DNA of 53,072 nucleotides from an uncultured Bacteroidia bacterium (GTDB lineage: Bacteria; Bacteroidota; Bacteroidia; NS11-12g; UBA9320): assembly GCA_905478335.1 (NCBI GenBank), contig CAJQIC010000045.1, forward strand, positions 1 through 53,072, written 5' to 3'. Positions 7,577-43,538 of this stretch are shown in pieces. Below the pieces are notes generated by a model that was not told the DNA's origin, made no database searches, and worked only from the letters and a program-made list of their open reading frames with translations. How positions within the stretch are numbered: position 1 is the stretch's first letter; each line of letters begins with the position of its first letter. The position numbers and the translations under genes are program-made.

Positions 7577-8058
7577 ATTACCAATTGCATGTCTTTTAAG
7601 TAAGCCTTCAAAAATTTTCTTGCACGAAAGATGTTAATCTTCACCTGCGCCTCTGTCATTCCAGTAATCTCTCCAATACTCTTGTAATCATACCCCTCAT
7701 AATCACGCAGTAGAATAACTGTCTTCTGTTTTTCTGGTAATCTTTCGACAGCACCATTTATAATTTCTAGCGTATCTGAGTATTGTTCTGAATGACTGTA
7801 CCTGTTTTCAACTACTTCATCCATCGTAGTGCTACGTTTTGCTTTCCGAATGATATCGATGCAATTGTTGTAGGCTATTTTAAATATGAATGCTTTCGCT
7901 GTAGTCATTTCTACTTTCTCTTTTCTGACCCAAAGTTTTTCGAATGTATTTTGCACAACATTTTCGGCTTCAAATTCATCTCTTAAATTTTTAAGAGCGA
8001 ATCTGAAAATCCCATCTGAGAGCAACTCAACACATTTATTATACTCTTTAGTGGTCAT
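7573..8058 (-). CDS. ECF-type RNA polymerase sigma factor
   Basis: This 161-residue sigma-70-family protein contains only regions 2 and 4. Region 2 (about 10-75) includes the core-binding AENVVQNTFEKLW and the -10-reading FIFKIAYNNCIDIIR. Region 4 (about 105-155) has LPEKQKTVILLRDYEGYDYKSI followed by a helix-turn-helix. It is the first gene of a sigma / anti-sigma / outer-membrane barrel operon. A GTAAC-N16-CGTA element lies just upstream and looks like an autoregulatory ECF promoter. The subgroup cannot be assigned by eye. Confidence 0.92.
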   Translation of the reverse strand: MTTKEYNKCVELLSDGIFRFALKNLRDEFEAENVVQNTFEKLWVRKEKVEMTTAKAFIFKIAYNNCIDIIRKAKRSTTMDEVVENRYSHSEQYSDTLEIINGAVERLPEKQKTVILLRDYEGYDYKSIGEITGMTEAQVKINIFRARKFLKAYLKDMQLVI

Positions 8059-31017: not shown

Positions 31018-34000
31018 TTATCGAACAATGTTTATTGTGCCTTTGAGCTCGTAGGTTCTTCCTGATGTACTTGTTGCGTTTATTAGGTACGCATATATAC
31101 CCACTTTGCAATAACGCCCCCCAGACTTACCATCCCACTCTTCAGATAAGTTGTCAGACGCATACACTTGTTCTCCCCATCTATTAAAAATTTCGATGTG
31201 ATACCGACTTACATTTGTTCCTACCACCTTAAACTCCTCTGTGATTTCAGAACCCCTGCCATTTGGCGAAAATGCTGTCGGCACAAATATTTGAATGTCT
31301 GGAAGCACCCTGATTTTCTCCGTATACTCGTCTGTGCAACCATGAATGGATGTTGCAATGAGCCGAACATTGAAACTGCCTGTATCTATTCCAAAATCAA
31401 ACGATGGTGAATGGTTCGTAGAGATGTCTGTTGGCAAGCCAGTGTCAAATTTCCACAAATACGTACTGCTGTCTGCACCTGTACTTGTGTTGTTAAACTT
31501 CACAATAGGGTTTGCAACCGAAACAGCACCAGATGGATAGGCTCTAAACGAAGCGTTAGGAGATTCGTATACATCCACTGCATTTAACCAGGTTTTATTA
31601 AATACACATCCCTTAGGCGACACGGTATGTACCGAAATGGAATACGTACCAGCGTTTTTAAAGGTTGTAGCAGGTTCAAGCTTGTTTGATGGTTTTTGAT
31701 TACCACCAAAATCCCATTCAGTTTGCGCCAATGTCCAATCTACCCGTTCCGCATCATACATAAATCTAGGCTTAAACACGAATGGTGTACACCCGACAAA
31801 ATGAGAATCGAGCAAATCAATTTTCGCCTTTGGGTTAATTCTTATTTGGTATTGTTCTTTGTTTGTCGGACAATAACCATCACCTATAAGTTGCATGTCT
31901 AACAACATTTTTCTTTCACCAATTTCTCTCTTGGTCGGTCTGTAAGTAAATACGTTAGTACCGCTATTAAACACCGTATCGCCGTTCGAATAAACAACGC
32001 TTAAATCACCATGTTCCACCTGAAGTGGATTAAGTTCAATCGATTGGCCTTCGCACATGTGACTGGGCACACCGTCGACGATTGTGTAATTAGGCACTGG
32101 GACTACCGTTATTTTATGCGGATAATTGAACGTGCATTTATTGTCAACTACACAGTAATTCAGTACATACGTTTTGTTGTCATTGGTTATATTCAATACG
32201 TTACCTGAAACATCTTTTCCACTAAACGTACCCAACGCAGGATTAGCTATAAGTTCCAATTGTGGTGTAAATGCACAAATGGTGTCATGTAAATCAAACT
32301 GAATGCTGGGTTTACAAACGACCGCTAAGCTAACTTCCTTGTTTACATAGCAGCCAAACTGGTCATAGGTAAACAATAAATCTAAACCCCCACATTTTTC
32401 AGATGCCACACGGCCATTTATTACATCTGCCGGGTCTTTTAAGGAAGTCCAAAATCCTCCACCAAGATTAATATCAAATACCGAATTTAAATCTGTTGTA
32501 TCTCCTTGACATATTTTCTGATCCATTACATAAGATAGATCAATGTCGTCCAACAAAGACAGTATAGCGGTATCAGCTGTTTCACACCCATATTCATTTT
32601 TAAACACACCAACAATCTGATGATCTCCTATAGACAAACCTGTAAGCTGAATTAAGTGCTTGTTGCCCTGAGGATTATCGGCCAGAGGAACACCATCTAT
32701 CTTCCATTGTATGTCGTACGATCCGAAAGAAAAAAGTCCTGGATCCATATTGATCAGGTTGAAATAACCCGAAGCACCGCAAATCGTCGTTTTCTCAAGA
32801 CTTAGCTGCGGCTGTGGAATTACCCAAACACATAAGGTGTCGTGGCTTTTGCACCCGGAAATCATTGATTCCGTAGTGTAGACCTGACATACCTCGACGG
32901 ACTCTGTAATATCACCCAGTCGAGTCAAATCTAAAATGCTACCATTCAAAAGATCGTGGCTAACACCTTCCCAGGTTCCGGTTTTCACAGATGGCAGGTT
33001 GGTCAAGTCCAGCTGAGCCGTGCCTTCACAAATAGGTTGTATACTTTCTATCTCAACTTCTAATCCCTTATCCACCTTTACTTCCTTAGACAAGACATTC
33101 TTACACTGTAGATTTCCTTTAGACCCCGACACAAGCAATTCGATGTGATCGGCTGTTTCCTGGTAGGCGGCTAAGAAACTATATCTTGCAGTTATAGAAA
33201 CTGTATCTGCATTATGCAACCAAAAAAGATTGCTCAAAACAACCCCATTATTGGGTTTTACAACAAATCGAGCAGAATCACCGGCACAATAGGTGCTATT
33301 ACCTAGTATTTCACCGAAATCACTCGTCAAATCTTTCTCGCTCTTCTGTATTTCCTTCGATACAACGCGTTTACATCCCAAATCATCTGTAACGGTTAGT
33401 TCCATTTGGCCCACAATAGGCTTGTCAAACTGGATGGTATCTACAGCCTTATTAGAACTGAAATAAACATTACCGTTTTCTTCTCTAAACGACCATTCCA
33501 CTTTGTGACCTGCGTTACTGTTTAAACTATCAGACTCTAGTTTTAAGCTCCCACACCACAATTCACTCATACGCAAATGGCTTGATGGTAAATCATTAAC
33601 CTTAACAACGTATTTAGTCGATGCAGACGCATTAATAGGACAATTGTCGTCTGTAGCTTTTACGTCTAATTCAAACAATTTGCCAGCCGAAGATGCATTT
33701 GGAGTCCAACACACCCGTAATTTTTTATAAGGTGCGGTTGATATGGCAACTTCTTTAATTTCTGCATTAGGCAGTTGCGACACCCACTTATAGCTTACCG
33801 TATTTGCACTTTGGTAGGTGCCATCTGGATATACATAAGGAACATCTTGAGCTTGTATGTCGAAACATATTTCAGAACCAGCACACGCGTCTATGATATT
33901 TGCTGACCTATTGATTGACGTCCCGAACAATTGAGGTGGATTGTTGTGCTGACCTATTGATGTAACCTCAACTAAAATATCACGTCGAACAACGCTCACT

Positions 34001-34893
34001 AAATGCATTCCTGAGGACGTTTTTTGAAATTTCTCTACCTCAAAAACCAGCGACGCTTTCTCACTGTTTTTGATCGGCGTAAATGCTAAAAATCCCGTAA
34101 TAGGATCCAGTGTTACACCAATCGGAGGATTTGCATTCGGATTTGCATCACAATTTACGACATCACCATTGCACCAAACACTTAAGGGCCTATGCAAAAA
34201 GTATCCCGTCTGATAATCAATTTCATTTCCAGCACCTCGTAATGGTTTTGCAAAATGAATTGACACCGAATCACCCGAAATGTCGTCCAATACTAAACTC
34301 CTAGATGCTTGATTAACCGTAAGCAGAATCTCTGGTTGACTAGAAAATGTTGGAGAAGAATGTTTAACGTATGGGTCGATAAAACTGTAATTGTATAACG
34401 TCTCACCAAAAGAAGATTGACTGAGGTTATCAATGTCGTCGGCTCTTGTAGCCAGTTGTACATACATGTCAAAACCGCAGTTTTCATACGATTTATAGGT
34501 ATTGAAATCAATTTCTGTTGTAAAGGTATGTGCTTCTACGCCATAGTTTAATCCAGAGTCGCCACTACACTTTGACATAGTCGAAGCACAAATGGGCAAT
34601 ACCTTTTCAATGGACTGTCGTGTTAGAGTGAATTGAGCTAAACTTTTTGAAGTGCAACCATTTCTTGCCGATGAATTGAGATACAATAGGAATTGACCAC
34701 AATCCTTGGTGTTGGTTCCACCACCCTCTCCAGCAATCTTGCATTCGTTGCAGTCGCGGTATACGGTAACAAAAGCTTTATACTTATAGTCCTTAATATA
34801 TTTGTAAGTAATCTCCGCACCTAGGATATGAGATCCTAGTGATTGCATTTGGAACACCAAACATAAGGTCGATATAAGGACTAATTTTTTCAA
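31018..34893 (-). CDS. Giant surface protein with type B (gliding-motility-associated) T9SS sorting domain
   Basis: This 1291-residue exported protein begins with a signal peptide (about 1-20) and the conserved SHILGAEITYKYI domain that opens many Bacteroidota surface proteins. That region shares NPNANPPIGVTLDPITGFLAFTP and CWTP blocks with the neighbouring 1572-residue paralogue. The middle consists of Ig/PKD-like modules, each with one or two cysteines. The last 92 residues (from about 1200: FVPTAFSPNG ... IFNRWGEQVY ... EEWDGK ... GTINIVR) are the type B T9SS sorting domain. The start is TTG (TTGAAAAAA); no ATG lies before the signal peptide. A terminator separates it from the upstream paralogue. 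It is probably an adhesin or matrix protein; that is inference. Confidence 0.88.
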   Translation of the reverse strand: MKKLVLISTLCLVFQMQSLGSHILGAEITYKYIKDYKYKAFVTVYRDCNECKIAGEGGGTNTKDCGQFLLYLNSSARNGCTSKSLAQFTLTRQSIEKVLPICASTMSKCSGDSGLNYGVEAHTFTTEIDFNTYKSYENCGFDMYVQLATRADDIDNLSQSSFGETLYNYSFIDPYVKHSSPTFSSQPEILLTVNQASRSLVLDDISGDSVSIHFAKPLRGAGNEIDYQTGYFLHRPLSVWCNGDVVNCDANPNANPPIGVTLDPITGFLAFTPIKNSEKASLVFEVEKFQKTSSGMHLVSVVRRDILVEVTSIGQHNNPPQLFGTSINRSANIIDACAGSEICFDIQAQDVPYVYPDGTYQSANTVSYKWVSQLPNAEIKEVAISTAPYKKLRVCWTPNASSAGKLFELDVKATDDNCPINASASTKYVVKVNDLPSSHLRMSELWCGSLKLESDSLNSNAGHKVEWSFREENGNVYFSSNKAVDTIQFDKPIVGQMELTVTDDLGCKRVVSKEIQKSEKDLTSDFGEILGNSTYCAGDSARFVVKPNNGVVLSNLFWLHNADTVSITARYSFLAAYQETADHIELLVSGSKGNLQCKNVLSKEVKVDKGLEVEIESIQPICEGTAQLDLTNLPSVKTGTWEGVSHDLLNGSILDLTRLGDITESVEVCQVYTTESMISGCKSHDTLCVWVIPQPQLSLEKTTICGASGYFNLINMDPGLFSFGSYDIQWKIDGVPLADNPQGNKHLIQLTGLSIGDHQIVGVFKNEYGCETADTAILSLLDDIDLSYVMDQKICQGDTTDLNSVFDINLGGGFWTSLKDPADVINGRVASEKCGGLDLLFTYDQFGCYVNKEVSLAVVCKPSIQFDLHDTICAFTPQLELIANPALGTFSGKDVSGNVLNITNDNKTYVLNYCVVDNKCTFNYPHKITVVPVPNYTIVDGVPSHMCEGQSIELNPLQVEHGDLSVVYSNGDTVFNSGTNVFTYRPTKREIGERKMLLDMQLIGDGYCPTNKEQYQIRINPKAKIDLLDSHFVGCTPFVFKPRFMYDAERVDWTLAQTEWDFGGNQKPSNKLEPATTFKNAGTYSISVHTVSPKGCVFNKTWLNAVDVYESPNASFRAYPSGAVSVANPIVKFNNTSTGADSSTYLWKFDTGLPTDISTNHSPSFDFGIDTGSFNVRLIATSIHGCTDEYTEKIRVLPDIQIFVPTAFSPNGRGSEITEEFKVVGTNVSRYHIEIFNRWGEQVYASDNLSEEWDGKSGGRYCKVGIYAYLINATSTSGRTYELKGTINIVR

Positions 34894-34977: not shown

Positions 34978-37900
34978 CTAGCGGATAAGTGTAACTGTAC
35001 CCGAGTATTTGTATTCTTCGTCGTCCCAACTTACGAGTCTTAAGTAATACGCATATACGTCTTGTGGAACTGGTTCTCTGCGATCGTATGCAGTTGAATT
35101 TGCACTACCATCCCATCCAGCGTCACGGCCATATTTACCGTCCCACTCTGCTAAACGGTCTTTCGTTTCCCATATTACCTCGCCCCAACGGTTAAAGATA
35201 ATTAGATGGTACTCTTTAGCAGCGTCGTTAACAACTGGTCTAAATCCATCATTGGCTTCAGGACCTCCACCGTCTGGTGAGAAGGCGTTAGGAATAAATA
35301 CCAGAATATCAGGACCAATAATAACAGGGTATGTGAATTGCGACTCGCAACCATACTGCGTTCTTACGGTAAGTGTTACATCATATGTACCCGTATCTGA
35401 TGGGTAGAAGAACAATGGGCTTGCTTCAGTTGACGTATCATCTATTTCAGATAAAATACCGAAGTCCCAGATGTTTTCAGAGATGACACTATTTAGTTCT
35501 GTTGTTACCGTAGACTCATTATTAAACTGGAATTTAGGTAAAGCTGCTGTTTGACTATTGTTTGGATTTGGAGTAAACATAGCCACAGGAATAGGGTAAA
35601 CCTCTACATCAAGGGTTAAGTTCGTATCACAACCAAAGGCTGAAGTCAACTTCAACTGAACGTTATTGTTTCCATTTTGCGTGAATTGGTAATTTGGATT
35701 TTGGATGTTATCTGATCCTCCATCTGCATAGGTCCACTCGTAAACAGTTGCATTCGGGTCTATTTGGTTCAACATAGTTGTAGTAAACTGTACGTCTACT
35801 GGATTACAACCGTTTAAGGTATCACCCGTAATATCAGCAACCGGTTTAGGGTGCACAACCACACTCATGGTCTTATCTGTAAACGGACAAACGTTGTTGC
35901 TATTTTCAACGGTTTGAGCATACAATAGATGTGTGAATACAGAATCTGGGGAGTTTGCAAAACTAAACGTAGTTTGATCTGCACCATTATCCGCTACTGA
36001 ACCACCATTTAATGGCAGCCAGAAAACTCCAGTTGAATTTGTATAGTCTGCTTTTACATTTAACACCATATTATCTGTTCGACAAATCGCGGTGTCATTT
36101 GAAATCTCTAAGGTGTGCTGTTGATGTACAATTACTTTCACAGAATCTCGTCCTTCACAACCATGTAAATCAGCATAGTCGTAGAAGATGTCAATAGGTG
36201 AGTTATAATTAGTAACAGCGTCTGGCATAAATACTGCGCCACTTACTGCACCAGCTTCACTAGCAGACCATGTACCTCCAGAATAATTCACTTCCATATT
36301 AACATCGGCATCCAATTCACAGAAAGTAAATGGTTCAAACGAACTATGTACTTCAGAGAATTTAACCTCATTAATAATTGGAACTGGCAGCCCACGTATC
36401 GTTAACGTAGTATCCACAAAAGTTGGACAACCAGATCTGTCATGAGAATAACGCATAACATAGGTAAAGAAACTACCTTCTGGTGGTTGTGGCGTATTCA
36501 ACGTATTTAACGTATCACCATTCAACGTGTCTCCTGTAAGTGCAGCATTCAAACCAGCTGCAGCAGCAAATCCAGTTGAATCAATTGCTTTCCAGATACC
36601 GTCATAAGGAAGTACCTTACTTAATACCTTTAGGTCAACAATTCCTTCATCCCAACATAAATCGTTAAATCCTTGATGTGTGATTTCTGGAACCAATGCA
36701 ACTGTAATTTTGGCTGTATCTCTATTGTAACAACCAAACACGTTTCTAAATTCTAATTCCACAACTATAGAGTCAGACGTTTTAGACCCAAGTGGCATTG
36801 CATTCTTATCAATGTAAATTTTATATACCTGAGGGGCACCTGGGTTGCCAGAGCCTTCATCCTTAATAATGTCACTTTCTGTGTAGGTACCACAATCAAT
36901 ACACTTCCATGCTTGACGACCTAAACTTAACGTCGCTCCACCTGGTCTGGAAATGATTTCGGTCACATCAACCACTCCTTTATCCTGACAGAAATAACCA
37001 TCTCGGATATCGACAACTGGTAATGGATTAACTTTTATTTCAAAAGAATCTGTTCTTACACAACCCGTGGACGGATGTACATAAGTATAATACACCTGAT
37101 TTCGTGTTGAGTTAGTCGCATGTCCGGCTAAATCCGTAATGAACTCGTATCCATTCTCCACTAAAGATGTATTGGCTGGACAGAACCATACCCCACCTGA
37201 TGCATTTACATCTTCAACTATTCTCAAGTTAATTTTACCTGCATCATGACATACTTCCATGTCATTTGGCATATCAACATCTGGTAGCTGATTAACTGTT
37301 ATACTCACCGTATCTGCATCATAACAGGTAGTTGTATCTTCAGTTATATAAATTTCTAATTGGAAATCTGTACTGTTCTGTATGTTGTACCTAAATGTAT
37401 CAGGTGCATTCATATTGACCCTTGGGTTAGAGGTGATGTCCCACCAACGCAATGATCCAGTTTTCCAGTTACCGGCAGTATCGAATTCAGTTCCAATCAA
37501 TTCCATCAGGTCATTCCAACAGTATGTTTTGTCTGGACCTGCATTCGCAATAACAGAATCATTCACTGCAAGAATCATGGTGTCTGTTGCAAAACAACCG
37601 ATACTATCGATTACTTTGATAATATACTCGCCACCTGTATTGATATCTATAAGGGCAGTATCTTGACTAATCAAGTTGCCATCTAAGTACCATTCTTTGT
37701 ACAAGGTATCACCTTGCCTAATTCTTATTTCACTTGTATCACGTGGGTCATCCCAATAGGCTAGACTGTCATTGGGGAAGAGACTAATTGAATTGTAGGT
37801 ACAAATTCTTCTATCCGGACCAATCTGAACCAATGGGTTTTCCTTCAGGAATACCGTAGTACTATCCCATGCTGTACAGTTATTTTGATCTCTGATTTCT

Positions 37901-39696
37901 ACATAGAATGTTGTATCCGAAGTTCTATTTGGTACAGAAATATCAATGTATGCTGTGGTATCTCCAGTACCCCATTTGTAAGTCACTGGCAACGATCCAT
38001 TGTTTACTTTTGGCTCAAGACGTAACGTAGTACCTGCACAAACAAAGGTATCAGGACCGAAGGCTAAGTCAACCTCCAATAATGGTGGTACGACAATCGT
38101 ATCATAATAATCATTTGGACACTTCGGACTGTTGTTAATTGTATGCTGTACTATATATGTCCCTCCCTTTCGGAAAAGTATGGTATCATATTGTTTCGAA
38201 CTAATAAACGAACCTGTGCTTTCAAAGTAGCCAAGTCCTCTATCAAAAATAATCACGCCGTTTGAGTCCTTCAATTGCCATGAATATTTAGCAGGGTTCT
38301 TAAAGTTCGGGAAAGGTTTACTTTCAACGGCATATCTACCACAATCTAATTTTGTGATTTTTCTTTCTGCTTCTGCGATTGGGTTTACTTTTACCTGGAA
38401 TGCACGAACTGTTACTGCATTCAAAGGACAAGCGTCATCACGTGCAGTTACCGTATAGGTATAAGGCAAATCACTTGCAGTTCCGATTGGTGGTGTCCAA
38501 CAGAATCTACCAGACTGGTTCAGCGCTTTTGGGTTGACAACTGTAAATGTTGCACCAGGAATACCTCTGTTCCACTTAATGGTTACTGTATCCGGTGGAG
38601 GCTTGGGCAATGGTGGAGGTGGAACCTTCACCTTGTCTTCTGTCGTGATCGTATAACAAATTTGCGACCCTTCACAGACCGTAGTCGAGAATTTCCCCTT
38701 TATAATGGGCGGATTATTCCCTGGACACTGTTTCGTTATAAACTGCATATCCCGCCTCGTGACCCCGATGACTTCGTATTTGCCTGTGGTGGCATTTTTC
38801 CGCCACTCTTTCACCTCCAACACCGCAACTGTTATTTCATCACATTTTACCGGAGTAAAAATCAAATCACCAGTTTCAGGATCTAAATAAATACCGATTG
38901 GTGGATTTGCATTTGGGTTGTTGTATGGTGGCTTTAAAGTACCTGGGAAGTAAGAATCAAATGGGTTTTTGTATGTGTAGTTACCACTGTAGCTAATTTT
39001 GTTATTCCAACCTCTCAATGGGTTAGCAAAACTGTATGATAACGAATCAAAGTTAGCCGTATCCGACGCACCATTGTTATAATAGAACGGCTGGTTACAA
39101 CATAAGTAAGCAATTGGCTCTGTTGTCAGTGCAGGAGAAGAGTTACATGGCGCTTTACATAGGTCAATCGTAGCGTAGGTGTAAAAGTTCTGGTTTGCAG
39201 CACCCGATGTAATGTTCGAGTTACGACAACACTGTCCTGTTTCTAATCGAATTTCACAACACCCATTTTTAGTCAAATTACTATAGGGTGCTTTATTGAA
39301 GTCGATGGTTACCGTATAAAAGTGCTCCTCGATTCCATCACCAGTACGACTGGTATTTGAAGGATTACACGGCTTTGTAGCTGTAGCACAAACGGGCGTC
39401 ACGTCTCTAATACTAGTACGTGTCAAAGAGACCCCTTGAGAGGACCCCGTTTTTGTACAAATCAACTTCGTAATGTTACTCGGATTACCGAACGGAACAC
39501 CACCGCAATAGCGGTAATATTTCACAGTAAACTGAAATTTAAGCGTATCAAGACATTTGTACGTGATATCAGCTCCCATTACGTGGGTCGCTTTTGCCTG
39601 TTGGACATTGGCAAAGATGACAAATCCAACCAGTGCTAACGCACTTAAAATCAGGCGCTTCACCTGAAGTGTATGTTTTTGTAGACCTATTCTCAT
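34978..39696 (-). CDS. Giant surface protein with type B T9SS sorting domain (paralogue of the downstream gene)
   Basis: At 1572 residues this is the largest protein here. A long signal region (about 1-36, ending AKA) precedes THVMGADITYKCL and a cysteine-rich N-terminal domain (CNPSN, CCEIRL, QCCRN, LCCNQ) to about 230. The CDEITVAVLEV/CWTPP blocks shared with the 1291-residue paralogue follow. A proline-rich insert (PPPPLPKPPP) lies near 365. Then come about a dozen repeats with aromatic, cysteine and GG-containing turns (GGTWSAS, GGVWFCP), and PKD-like domains near the end. The sorting domain starts near 1464 (FIPNAFSPDGGG ... FNRWGEVIW). It contains an extra WDG-containing insert between EWDGKY and the PVPQDVYAYYL strand. 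Likely structural or adhesive. Confidence 0.88.
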   Translation of the reverse strand: MRIGLQKHTLQVKRLILSALALVGFVIFANVQQAKATHVMGADITYKCLDTLKFQFTVKYYRYCGGVPFGNPSNITKLICTKTGSSQGVSLTRTSIRDVTPVCATATKPCNPSNTSRTGDGIEEHFYTVTIDFNKAPYSNLTKNGCCEIRLETGQCCRNSNITSGAANQNFYTYATIDLCKAPCNSSPALTTEPIAYLCCNQPFYYNNGASDTANFDSLSYSFANPLRGWNNKISYSGNYTYKNPFDSYFPGTLKPPYNNPNANPPIGIYLDPETGDLIFTPVKCDEITVAVLEVKEWRKNATTGKYEVIGVTRRDMQFITKQCPGNNPPIIKGKFSTTVCEGSQICYTITTEDKVKVPPPPLPKPPPDTVTIKWNRGIPGATFTVVNPKALNQSGRFCWTPPIGTASDLPYTYTVTARDDACPLNAVTVRAFQVKVNPIAEAERKITKLDCGRYAVESKPFPNFKNPAKYSWQLKDSNGVIIFDRGLGYFESTGSFISSKQYDTILFRKGGTYIVQHTINNSPKCPNDYYDTIVVPPLLEVDLAFGPDTFVCAGTTLRLEPKVNNGSLPVTYKWGTGDTTAYIDISVPNRTSDTTFYVEIRDQNNCTAWDSTTVFLKENPLVQIGPDRRICTYNSISLFPNDSLAYWDDPRDTSEIRIRQGDTLYKEWYLDGNLISQDTALIDINTGGEYIIKVIDSIGCFATDTMILAVNDSVIANAGPDKTYCWNDLMELIGTEFDTAGNWKTGSLRWWDITSNPRVNMNAPDTFRYNIQNSTDFQLEIYITEDTTTCYDADTVSITVNQLPDVDMPNDMEVCHDAGKINLRIVEDVNASGGVWFCPANTSLVENGYEFITDLAGHATNSTRNQVYYTYVHPSTGCVRTDSFEIKVNPLPVVDIRDGYFCQDKGVVDVTEIISRPGGATLSLGRQAWKCIDCGTYTESDIIKDEGSGNPGAPQVYKIYIDKNAMPLGSKTSDSIVVELEFRNVFGCYNRDTAKITVALVPEITHQGFNDLCWDEGIVDLKVLSKVLPYDGIWKAIDSTGFAAAAGLNAALTGDTLNGDTLNTLNTPQPPEGSFFTYVMRYSHDRSGCPTFVDTTLTIRGLPVPIINEVKFSEVHSSFEPFTFCELDADVNMEVNYSGGTWSASEAGAVSGAVFMPDAVTNYNSPIDIFYDYADLHGCEGRDSVKVIVHQQHTLEISNDTAICRTDNMVLNVKADYTNSTGVFWLPLNGGSVADNGADQTTFSFANSPDSVFTHLLYAQTVENSNNVCPFTDKTMSVVVHPKPVADITGDTLNGCNPVDVQFTTTMLNQIDPNATVYEWTYADGGSDNIQNPNYQFTQNGNNNVQLKLTSAFGCDTNLTLDVEVYPIPVAMFTPNPNNSQTAALPKFQFNNESTVTTELNSVISENIWDFGILSEIDDTSTEASPLFFYPSDTGTYDVTLTVRTQYGCESQFTYPVIIGPDILVFIPNAFSPDGGGPEANDGFRPVVNDAAKEYHLIIFNRWGEVIWETKDRLAEWDGKYGRDAGWDGSANSTAYDRREPVPQDVYAYYLRLVSWDDEEYKYSGTVTLIR

Positions 39697-39750: not shown

Positions 39751-41295
39751 TCAATTATTTATCAAAATCACTTTATTTATGGATAAACTATTTGAATTCA
39801 CTGCCTTTAAGTAGTAGACCCCAGACGTCAGTTTTTCGTTGCATGGAATCGTAAATTTATTTTCGGAGTTATCCACCTTGTGCAGAAATGCGATTCGCCT
39901 TCCTCTGGAATCGGTTAATTCAACCGATTCTACATTGAGATGAATGACCTCATCTTGTCCTAAAACAAAGGGGTTTGGATACGCCATAGGCTGCTCTTTG
40001 ACAGATACATTTTGGCTTGTAAGTGTTGAATTATAAAAAGTTAATACGTTATCAACTTCTTCCATCAACCTTGATTTGACATCACTTTTATCAACGGCAG
40101 CAACATAAGCCAAATCGATACGCTTGAATGACTTGGACTTAAAGCGATCGTATTTTATAACACCTAGTCCATGACGATGACCCGCTGTATCTCCAGAATT
40201 ATCGTCCGTCCAACTTTGATTCAATTTTGAATCAGTGGTGTTCGGATAGACAAAATTTGTTATTTGACTTGGGCTTCCAGATAATCCTGAACCTACACCA
40301 TACTTGGGATTCCCATTTGACCAAAGTCCTTGCATGACGTTTAACATTTCTTTCTCGTTTCTAGGCAAGCTTCTGACGGAATCACCATCAATAAAACCAA
40401 TTGAATTATGAATTTTGTGATTCAAAAAAACCGTTCCTGCTGCAGGAAGTGTTTCGCCAAAACCATTTTCGTCTAGTGCATCACCATTAAAACCAAAAAC
40501 CATATTTCGATTTACGTCCGTTTCTAATTGATTACCAAAACGATTACCCAGTTGATAATCAACATATTGACCAAAATAAAAGGGTGCATAATCATTGGTT
40601 GATCGATTGATTAAAAACAGCTTTACGAATATGGTATTTTCCAAGTCTTTTCTGTCGAATGCATAAACCAATCCTTGGATTTCGATACCAAGTTTATTGG
40701 CTTGGGGAAATATGTTTTCTCCAAATAAATCATTGGCAATAAAATAACAGGCGTAATCTCCTTCAAAGCTTGGGTAGTCACCATTTTCAGGATCATAAAC
40801 ACCGTTTAAATTCCAATCAATATAGGGCGCCATAAAAGGGCTAATATTGTTATCGCCATGCTTAGCTGGCCAGTTGTCAATGCGCTCTGAGACTTGATAT
40901 CCTGATGATTCAAAATGCGTTCTATGAAACTCAACACTTTCCCTACTTATTCTCCAAACTTTTGACCAGGTTACCGCGTTTTTGGGCAAATTGGTAACCG
41001 TATCGATTGGGCCGGGCCACAACTGTTGCTTATCCCAATTGCAATTCTTATTGGCGTATACTGTGTCTTCAACAGCACCTGCCATCCAACTTCCACTATA
41101 CCGCATAAAACTTGCCGCATTATTATCATCTAGATAATTTATGGGGTTTCCATCTTTGTTTGCGAACAGGCTTCCATTAGATTGAACGATAGAAGACAAA
41201 TGACCATTTGAAAGAATGGCGGACTCTGATTGACCAAAGCCAGCAAAAGGCATCGCCATTAACGCACTTAGCGCTATTTTTTTAAACGACACCAC
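39751..41295 (-). CDS. Secreted T9SS cargo with type A sorting domain, last gene of an ECF sigma operon
   Basis: The 514-residue protein has a signal peptide (about 1-21, ending GFGQ), a 400-residue body of unknown fold rich in W, D, N and G, and a C-terminal type A sorting domain from about 432 (MAYPNPF ... VELTDSRGRRIAFL ... GVYYLKAVN ... INKVILINN). The body has no enzyme motif I recognise, though DWNLNGVYDPENGDYP suggests calcium-binding turns. It starts with GTG whose G is shared with the TAG stop of the barrel-fusion gene. This is tight coupling to a sigma / anti-sigma-barrel pair, so its export state may be what that pair monitors. Confidence 0.82.
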   Translation of the reverse strand: MVSFKKIALSALMAMPFAGFGQSESAILSNGHLSSIVQSNGSLFANKDGNPINYLDDNNAASFMRYSGSWMAGAVEDTVYANKNCNWDKQQLWPGPIDTVTNLPKNAVTWSKVWRISRESVEFHRTHFESSGYQVSERIDNWPAKHGDNNISPFMAPYIDWNLNGVYDPENGDYPSFEGDYACYFIANDLFGENIFPQANKLGIEIQGLVYAFDRKDLENTIFVKLFLINRSTNDYAPFYFGQYVDYQLGNRFGNQLETDVNRNMVFGFNGDALDENGFGETLPAAGTVFLNHKIHNSIGFIDGDSVRSLPRNEKEMLNVMQGLWSNGNPKYGVGSGLSGSPSQITNFVYPNTTDSKLNQSWTDDNSGDTAGHRHGLGVIKYDRFKSKSFKRIDLAYVAAVDKSDVKSRLMEEVDNVLTFYNSTLTSQNVSVKEQPMAYPNPFVLGQDEVIHLNVESVELTDSRGRRIAFLHKVDNSENKFTIPCNEKLTSGVYYLKAVNSNSLSINKVILINN

Positions 41296-42842
41296 TATTT
41301 CAAGTCGTATTTCAAGCCTAGAGATACGCCGTAACCAAGATCGTTTTGATTGATTGGGTATGAAGCACTATTGGTCGGACTTAGGAAGAAATTCCCTTTT
41401 ACCTCAGCCAATATATTTAGTCTTTCTTTAGCCAACATGGTTACGCCGAATCCGACACCAACCATATTACCCATTCGTGTTCTTGCAAAGCCTTCATCAA
41501 TAACTACTTCCTCGTATTGATCATTCAGCACAACACCTGATGTTTTTGTCATGACTTCCAATCCGCCATTCACAGCGAGGTGAATGCCCAATTTCTTCCC
41601 ATATAAGGTATAACGCAAACCAACTGGCACATAAAAATGCTTGTAACTGTTGTTGAATGCACCTTTTGTCTCAACACTTCTTTGGTCGTAGGTAGTATCA
41701 TAAACGGTCACTTGTCGTGTACTAAATACTGGGTGATGCTCAATCACTTGTTTCGAGGTGACATTCATGTCTGTTACCATAGATTGTTGATAGTAATTCA
41801 TAGATTCTCGTCGATTGAAGAACCCAACACCACCAAAGGCCTCAAGATTATCCATTAGTCTGTAGTTCAACAATACTTCTGTTCCATAACTTAATTGGTT
41901 AGTCTCCGTATTGTCGCGCACTACAACGGTTGCGATGTCTCCACTCTGGTCAAGATTTCTACTCCCACTGCCTATTAGGGTGTTTAGTGAAACGCTCCAG
42001 TTTCTACCTTTTGTCTTAGGTAAGCCAAAATCCTCGTCTCCAATGGCATCATTCGCATCGGCGTCCGATTTCGACTCATCTGCTTTAGCGATGTCTTGTT
42101 TCGATTCAACTATTAAATCCGTTTTGGTTTCCGTTGACGTATTTTCTTGATTGCTAGTAATATTGTTGTTGTCATTGTTGTTGTCGCTTTCCGCAATGGC
42201 TTCACCGACATCTTTTTGGGTCAATGCATTGTCGTTTACTTCGCCTTGATCTTTATCAGTGGCATCGGCTAGGTTTTGCGTATTGATAGTATTCAAATCA
42301 GTATCGCCCTTACCATCTTCTATACTGTTGAGTTGACCGTCGTTATTACTTGCTTTAGCGTCAACATAAATTTTATTAGCATCTTCTAGCTTCGACAAAC
42401 TCTTGTGATCACTCTGTTCACCTTTTGTAGTTTTTAAACTTATCTGCTCTTCAACTATTTTCTGATCAGAATGATTAGAAGCTTTGTCTTTAATGATTTC
42501 TGCTTGCTCAATATCAGTAGAAATGGTTTCAGACGACTCATTTGTTGTTATTTGATTGTCTGATTGCGAAATGGCAGTTTGCTGCTCACTTACTGTGCTC
42601 TCGATAGTAGGTTCTGCAATTTCTGAACGATCCAGATTATAATTAACTAAGAAAGCCAATGCGCCAATTAAGGCCGCAGCAGCAATCAGTTTGTATTTAT
42701 TGAGAATCAACTTATTCCTAAATACATATAAAGGTGTTCGCTTTTCGAACACATTGTTCATCACATTCGGAGCTGCCTCCTCATGATTGTAAAGCAAATC
42801 CTTTACTTGATGTTCAAATTTCTTGTCTTGCATGTTCTTCAA
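41295..42842 (-). CDS. Single-chain inner- and outer-membrane protein: anti-sigma-like N-terminus fused to a beta-barrel
   Basis: Three parts are visible in 515 residues. Residues 1-48 are a soluble, helix-like N-terminus predicted to be cytoplasmic. A single transmembrane segment lies at about 50-68. About 210 residues of very low-complexity S/T/D/N/K/Q/E sequence follow (including NNNDNNN near 221). Residues 280-515 are a beta-barrel-like domain with GRNWSVSLNTLIGSGS at the start, alternating strands and LGYGVSLGLKYDLK at the end. The linker is long enough to cross the periplasm. It overlaps the sigma gene by four bases (ATGA), which argues for an anti-sigma role; no zinc motif is present. 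Confidence 0.8.
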   Translation of the reverse strand: MKNMQDKKFEHQVKDLLYNHEEAAPNVMNNVFEKRTPLYVFRNKLILNKYKLIAAAALIGALAFLVNYNLDRSEIAEPTIESTVSEQQTAISQSDNQITTNESSETISTDIEQAEIIKDKASNHSDQKIVEEQISLKTTKGEQSDHKSLSKLEDANKIYVDAKASNNDGQLNSIEDGKGDTDLNTINTQNLADATDKDQGEVNDNALTQKDVGEAIAESDNNNDNNNITSNQENTSTETKTDLIVESKQDIAKADESKSDADANDAIGDEDFGLPKTKGRNWSVSLNTLIGSGSRNLDQSGDIATVVVRDNTETNQLSYGTEVLLNYRLMDNLEAFGGVGFFNRRESMNYYQQSMVTDMNVTSKQVIEHHPVFSTRQVTVYDTTYDQRSVETKGAFNNSYKHFYVPVGLRYTLYGKKLGIHLAVNGGLEVMTKTSGVVLNDQYEEVVIDEGFARTRMGNMVGVGFGVTMLAKERLNILAEVKGNFFLSPTNSASYPINQNDLGYGVSLGLKYDLK

Positions 42843-43402
42843 CTTTCAATTTTTTCCAACATGGTCATCAAGTTTCTTCTCGCTCGCGTATATTGCGAGC
42901 GAGAAGTACTCTCATTAATGTTTAGTAGTTCACCAATTTCTTTGTGGCTATAACCTTCTACTGCAAACAGGTTAAAAACTAATTGATAACCTTCAGGCAG
43001 CTTTTTAATCATTGCCATAATTTCTTTTACGCCAATCGAATCCAAAACCAACTCTTGTTGAACGGGCTCTGCCACATTCTCCAAATCTCCTGGTTCAAAT
43101 TTGCGTGAGCGTTTATCCCAACTCCTCAATGCTGTATTGACCATGATTCTCCTCATCCAACCTTCGAAACTTCCTTCTTGCCTGAACTTAGATATCTTGT
43201 CAAATATTTTGATGAAGGACTCTTGTAAAACATCTTCCGCTTCCTCTCTGGTATTGGAATATCGCATACAAACAGCAAACATCTTATCAGCATATTTCTC
43301 GTACAACAACCCTTGCATCTGGCGATCTTCGCGAATGCAACCTCTTATTAGCTCTTCATCGCTATTCATCCAATCCACACTATGTTGTTCGTCCTTGCTC
43401 AA
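42839..43402 (-). CDS. ECF-type RNA polymerase sigma factor
   Basis: A 187-residue sigma-70-family protein with region 2 (YADKMFAVCMRYSNTREEAEDVLQESFIKIF, then GSFEGWMRRIMVNTALRSWDKR) and region 4 (LPEGYQLVFNLFAVEGYSHKEIGELL, then a helix-turn-helix INESTSRSQYTRAR). This is the sigma form common in Bacteroidota operons with a barrel-type partner. The annotated start is TTG; an ATG at codon 12 (before NSDEELIRGC) is an equally good start. It is the first gene of a three-gene operon with the trans-envelope protein and a T9SS cargo. I found no convincing autoregulatory motif upstream. Confidence 0.9.
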   Translation of the reverse strand: MSKDEQHSVDWMNSDEELIRGCIREDRQMQGLLYEKYADKMFAVCMRYSNTREEAEDVLQESFIKIFDKISKFRQEGSFEGWMRRIMVNTALRSWDKRSRKFEPGDLENVAEPVQQELVLDSIGVKEIMAMIKKLPEGYQLVFNLFAVEGYSHKEIGELLNINESTSRSQYTRARRNLMTMLEKIES

Positions 43403-43538
43403 GAATATGACACTTTATAAATCTAAAACGCTGCGTAAGTATTTAAAAAAAAATTAAAAATCGTTTTACTTGGCATAATTAACTGAAAAACAGCGAAATA
43501 CAAAGTAAAAAAATCATTCTCACTGGCACTGAGGTTCT

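Follow-up and report, generated by a model that had tools for sequence, protein, structure and literature searches.

The window analyzed here comprises a 53,072 nucleotide stretch of the genome of an uncultured Bacteroidia bacterium. Three adjacent genes on its minus strand, located where the original prediction placed them, encode an ECF sigma factor, a 515-residue protein, and a type IX secretion system (T9SS) cargo protein (Table 1). The sigma protein is matched by the Pfam families Sigma70_r2 (6e-16) and r4_2 (2.5e-15). A start at TTG 43402 is questionable, as this codon lies 4 nt beyond the end of the predicted promoter, and ATG 43369, which yields a protein of 176 aa, is the likelier start; alignment of the sigma proteins shows the start region to be conserved. 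The sigma gene is directly upstream of the gene for the 515-residue protein, and a 4-nt overlap between them had been foreseen correctly. However, the overlapping sequence is TTGA rather than ATGA, such that the second gene starts with TTG (the nearest ATG, at 42833, is 5 nt past the sigma stop). Overlaps of 4 nt are common at the sigma/anti-sigma junction of relatives. The end of the gene for the 515-residue protein and the start of the cargo gene have one base in common (TAGTG).

The proposal that these three genes form a coupled operon stands with respect to coupling, but not with respect to its end at position 39751, since two further genes lie downstream. The first of these encodes a protein of 1572 aa, begins 54 nt after the cargo gene, and represents the fourth gene of a conserved cluster, occupying the same position in relatives; its match to TIGR04131 (25.4 bits) is under the cut-off of 35. 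The second, encoding a protein of 1291 aa, begins 84 nt after the first and is possibly the last gene of the operon. The gene upstream of sigma encodes an Ldh_2 dehydrogenase, and the downstream genes encode T9SS-type secreted proteins. Elsewhere in the window, another ECF sigma gene (7588-8058, minus strand) scored above the cut-off of the GFO_1088/PG0214 family.

Table 1. Positions of genes, protein regions, and predicted promoters at the sigma locus and of sister promoter sites in the same genome.
Feature	Coordinates	Strand	Details and basis
Predicted ECF-type promoter, GCAGCG-N17-GTCAT	43407..43434	-	Sole exact match in window
ECF sigma factor	42839..43402	-	187 aa from TTG 43402; Pfam Sigma70_r2 and r4_2
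Dma-type anti-sigma factor (assigned by architecture)	41295..42842	-	515 aa from TTG, or from ATG 42833; alignment and AlphaFold2 model
N-terminal domain, residues 1-48, presumed cytoplasmic and sigma-binding	42699..42842	-	Conserved helical motif after same sigma family; binding inferred
Inner-membrane helix, residues 49-73	42624..42698	-	Hydropathy peak at residue 52; helix in model
Disordered tether, residues 74-278 (~205 residues)	42009..42623	-	pLDDT <50 over 69-278
OmpA-like outer-membrane barrel, residues 279-515	41298..42008	-	pLDDT ~90; OmpA Z 17.4, NspA Z 16.3
T9SS type A cargo, 514 aa, beta-supersandwich fold	39751..41295	-	TIGR04183; fold matches
Type A sorting domain of cargo	39766..39984	-	Sorting-domain profile search
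1572-aa secreted protein, PKD domains, CHU_C (T9SS type B) end	34978..39696	-	PF13585 1.5e-10
1291-aa T9SS type B protein	31018..34893	-	TIGR04131 38.4 bits, above cut-off
CCAACC-N17-GTCA sites (L395, L399)	G000:C36:1630-1656 and G000:C42:18724-18750		Upstream of porP-gldKLMN or second sigma

Structure prediction supported the layout anticipated for the 515-residue protein, namely a soluble N-terminus, one helix, a low-complexity stretch, and a C-terminal barrel. The AlphaFold2 model, computed from an input alignment of 24 sequences, comprised N-terminal helices, a helix at residues 49-73, a region with pLDDT below 50 at residues 69-278, and a barrel at residues ~280-515. OmpA was the best VIA-align match of the model (rmsd 2.7 over 170 residues), and OmpA and NspA were at or near the top in both Foldseek and VIA-align. 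VIA-align returned no fold outside residues 276-515 and is therefore uninformative with regard to the N-terminus, which, given its conserved helical motif, presumably holds the sigma factor. The protein had no Pfam match of its own, including to the FecR domain, while some of its homologs matched PF13505 or PF13568.

An adjacent ECF sigma factor, a single helix after a short N-terminal domain, a long disordered tether, and a C-terminal beta-barrel are all traits of Dma proteins, and we file the 515-residue protein as Dma-type by architecture alone. This architecture was reportedly presented in the founding Dma1 paper (PNAS, 2024). In the Dma family of Bacteroides thetaiotaomicron, an N-terminal anti-sigma domain, a helix, a long disordered tether, and a C-terminal barrel are encoded beside an ECF sigma factor (PMC13088901). 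The design, a barrel coupled to a sigma factor with no TonB receptor involved, had been put forward as undescribed; that part of the original prediction must be given up, as published Dma proteins are built in the same way (PMC13088901). The dma2 gene is within a three-gene operon, the effect of its deletion requires its sigma factor, and its barrel has been proposed to sense a surface ligand (PMC13088901). The B. thetaiotaomicron proteins and the 515-residue protein thus share the order of their parts, adjacency to an ECF sigma factor, and placement in an operon. The sigma factor expected beside a Dma protein is of group ECF21, and genes for sigma factors similar to that of the window stand ahead of Dma-like proteins in Bacteroidales. 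In contrast, the outputs of Dma in B. thetaiotaomicron are vesiculation and PUL expression, whereas the operon partners and predicted targets identified here are T9SS cargo. Accordingly, the new part appears to be the T9SS connection of the Dma-type switch, including a conserved sigma-Dma-cargo gene order.

A lack of conservation of the three-gene order outside this strain had been named beforehand as grounds for refutation, and the proposal withstood this test. Relatives were gathered through the sigma alignment and not through the 515-residue protein. A sigma gene, a barrel anti-sigma gene, and a gene of the same cargo family occurred in a row at 20 loci from the genus, family, and order of the window, which represent an uncultured order-level lineage, and many of these continued with a gene for a protein of roughly 1190-1620 aa. 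Since 20 loci keep the same order, the coupling of sigma, Dma, and cargo is above chance. A barrel-ended relative was encoded directly downstream of sigma at 21 of 22 loci of the family and order. At one locus (L042) the cargo sequence was recognizable yet absent from the called ORFs, and two loci of a single genus (L054 and L055) were without cargo. The triad was also detected in Acidiluteibacter (L079) and on several further contigs. In an rpoB tree with some inner branches left open, the lineage of the window was separate from the sampled Flavobacteriales, Sphingobacteriales, Cytophagales, and Chitinophagales/Saprospiria.

The cargo had been predicted to be of T9SS type A, which was confirmed by a TIGR04183 match above the cut-off (28.5 bits versus 23; NCBIfam); its PF18962 score of 26.8 was just below the Pfam cut-off of 27. 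The structural model of the cargo (pLDDT 81.5) matched the non-catalytic N-terminal domains of GH94/GH116-type enzymes with Z up to 18, and the catalytic domain of these enzymes is absent. Sorting-domain matches in the genome that includes the window numbered 103 for type A and 30 for type B, which over an assumed 2,500 genes corresponds to a background of ~5%.

The predicted promoter upstream of the sigma gene is probably autoregulatory. A pattern of the form G[CG]N[AGT]C[GA]-N17-GTC was present near the start of 20 of 21 sigma genes of the family and order, always with a spacer of 17 nt, and more distant sigma genes were preceded by related sites, in many cases GCAACC...CATCT at a distance of about 40-45 nt. 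To identify further candidate targets, five genomes of the genus were scanned for the exact pattern GCARCR-N17-GTCWT, with the reversed pattern as a control. The motif yielded 98 matches versus 52 for the reversed form. Among resolved sites, 19 of 96 motif sites were upstream of genes compared to 1 of 45 control sites (the control tally covers 45 of the 52 reversed-pattern sites; Fisher p 0.003). Two of the 19 precede the sigma gene itself and are circular. The remaining 17 represent 12 ortholog groups, six of which were counted as T9SS cargo in our own grouping. This frequency exceeds the sorting-domain background (p 1.6e-5) and also exceeds a background three times as high (p 0.005). One target group (AGHVSSNEITYRWIDTL), with the motif in three species, has an N-terminus that resembles that of the 1572-aa protein, and another (ENKGQWN) has the motif in four species. 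Eight target ORFs have confirmed sorting domains, while a PKD protein (L289) was seen as its N-terminus alone. Some matches, such as those at MgsA-like and CNNM-like genes, look like chance. The promoters of paralogous sigma genes in the genome of the window differ in sequence (several contain GCAACC and one contains CCAACC), which suggests that the GCARCR sites belong to the window sigma rather than to a paralog. In a separate observation, the T9SS cargo gene beside one predicted target promoter (L200 4059-7892, on G000:C9) is broken by an in-frame stop in the genome of the window, while the copies in G002 and G004 are intact.

A second sigma gene in the same genome (contig C42) is accompanied by a gene for a Dma-like partner of 389 aa with a weak PF13568 match under the cut-off, and is preceded by CCAACC-N17-GTCA. 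Within the genus, this sequence occurs before the second sigma gene in four species and before porP-gldKLMN in all five, at a distance of ~60 nt from porP (gldKLMN was read directly in one species, G001, and is presumed in the other four). A GCARCR-type motif 124 nt upstream of porP in G001 had pointed to the window sigma as a direct regulator of the T9SS core. That motif is not conserved across species whereas CCAACC-N17-GTCA is kept in five, and direct control of porP by the window sigma was therefore dropped. The SM6 ECF promoters of Flavobacterium psychrophilum precede T9SS genes as well as one sigma/anti-sigma pair (PMC9723704). With their CGT box and their association with T9SS core genes, they are nearer to the sister site than to the promoter in the window.

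A census of proteins encoded after the same sigma family, conducted with our own HMMs on 80 named and 30 Bacteroidales loci, indicated that the C-terminal module is exchangeable. A barrel end was identified at 37 of the 80 named loci and 20 of the 30 Bacteroidales loci. A T9SS type B sorting domain formed the end at 13 and 8 loci, respectively, and at 22 loci overall, including one in the genome of the window (L061, contig C20; by CHU_C), with nine such ends at or above cut-off (Pfam CHU_C, TIGR04131). Type B ends that replace the barrel were encoded in Bacteroidales (L357, L368, L374, and L383), in Crocinitomix (L147), and at L135, L129, L107, and L095. No module was detected with these HMMs at 22 named loci and 1 Bacteroidales locus. 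A single 560-aa anti-sigma-like protein (L087, 10535-12214) combines a PKD domain with a T9SS type A tail. The Dma-like relatives that carry T9SS sorting domains or no module differ in this respect from Dma of B. thetaiotaomicron. Furthermore, Pedobacter, Arcticibacter, and their relatives have split loci (L099, L105, L110, L114, L121, and others), where sigma and a short anti-sigma without a module are followed by a separate protein of ~270 aa that has a signal peptide and, by appearance, a putative barrel. A further module type is found in the genome of the window (L068, G000:C49), where the anti-sigma-like protein after sigma carries PKD and vWF_A domains.

Barrels are separated from the helix by 64-289 residues (median 161), and sorting domains by 118-399 residues (median 196). 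Assuming 0.35 nm per residue and a periplasm 20-30 nm wide, most tethers could be long enough to cross the periplasm. A search of open-licence papers returned no anti-sigma factor described as carrying a T9SS sorting domain, and the anti-sigma-like proteins with such ends are possibly the most novel observation of this study.

Collectively, the predicted link to the T9SS was strengthened by the shared sigma promoter, the T9SS cargo among the targets, and the relatives with sorting domains. We regard it as fairly probable that the locus encodes a Dma-type switch, in which a sigma factor is held at the inner membrane, is freed by an outer-membrane module, and transcribes genes for T9SS surface proteins. 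Here, residues ~1-48 would hold the ECF sigma factor at the inner membrane, one helix would anchor the protein, the tether of ~205 residues would cross the periplasm, and the OmpA-like barrel would reside in the outer membrane. A change reported by this module might free the sigma factor via tether tension or proteolysis, after which sigma would transcribe its own operon and a few large T9SS surface proteins from GCARCR-N17-GTCWT promoters. We infer sigma binding, the nature of the signal, the release step, and the use of the other promoter sites by this sigma factor instead of a paralog.

With respect to the signal, the swapping of barrel and sorting domain favors failed delivery of the module, whereas the published Dma2 proposal favors a surface ligand; the earlier suggestion that the signal is the export of the co-expressed cargo is a conjecture. 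Under failed delivery, a specific form of the Dma-type switch that we advance tentatively and with less than even confidence, the C-terminal module would be the sensor. The anti-sigma would be stable only upon delivery of its module, a barrel by BAM or a sorting domain by the T9SS, and failed delivery would expose the tether to proteases and free the sigma factor. The occurrence of barrels and T9SS sorting domains on the same N-terminus and helix, the T9SS cargo among predicted targets, and the promoter sequence common to the sister pair and porP-gldKLMN are consistent with such an export checkpoint. However, this presumes that the T9SS engages a sorting domain on a membrane-anchored protein, and loci without any module exist.

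In a ligand sensor, which we consider rather unlikely, a glycan or another ligand at the cell surface would instead be recognized by the barrel or its loops, and the beta-supersandwich cargo would help to handle it. This matches the hypothesis published for Dma2, and non-catalytic domains of glycoside hydrolases and phosphorylases have a fold similar to that of the cargo. Yet fold likeness by itself does not show binding, no PUL or SusCD genes were seen in the cluster, and versions with a sorting domain lack the barrel.

Signaling of the FecI-FecR-FecA type resembles the proposed switch in that an outer-membrane event reaches an ECF sigma factor via a single-helix anti-sigma, but it involves a separate TonB-dependent transducer and a FecR domain, neither of which was seen at the locus. 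A version in which such a transducer, encoded elsewhere, acts on the 515-residue anti-sigma would accord with the adjacency of sigma and a single-helix anti-sigma and with the barrel-like gene of the split loci in Pedobacter and relatives. Nonetheless, it is highly improbable given that the 515-residue protein has no FecR match and that no TonB receptor is encoded among the genes of the conserved cluster. We give equally little credence to the idea that the protein is a non-regulatory outer-membrane protein with an unusual N-terminus that adjoins sigma by descent; while its sigma binding is a prediction, in several orders the same sigma family is followed by this N-terminus and helix even as the C-terminus varies.

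The PorXY-SigP pathway of Porphyromonas gingivalis, where SigP is activated by PorX, is autoregulated, and targets T9SS components (PMC7712824, PMC4800418), likewise places T9SS genes under an ECF sigma factor with a sorting-domain protein, PorA, acting upstream. Unlike the Dma-type proteins, PorA is a separate surface protein and not an anti-sigma factor, and the step that joins surface PorA to inner-membrane PorY is still missing (PMC7712824).

How Bacteroidota sense the function of their own T9SS is the question at stake. It is possible, although we put it forward with some reserve, that Dma-type anti-sigma factors are export and assembly checkpoints with exchangeable ends (a barrel, a T9SS sorting domain of type A or B, or a barrel on a separate subunit) that couple the state of outer-membrane or T9SS delivery to the transcription of T9SS cargo and, through the sister pair, of the T9SS core operon. 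If so, a single protein, an anti-sigma factor with a barrel or sorting domain at its end, would connect the outer membrane to promoters, and the Dma family would extend beyond vesiculation in Bacteroides to a general switch between envelope and transcription whose sensor ends can be swapped.
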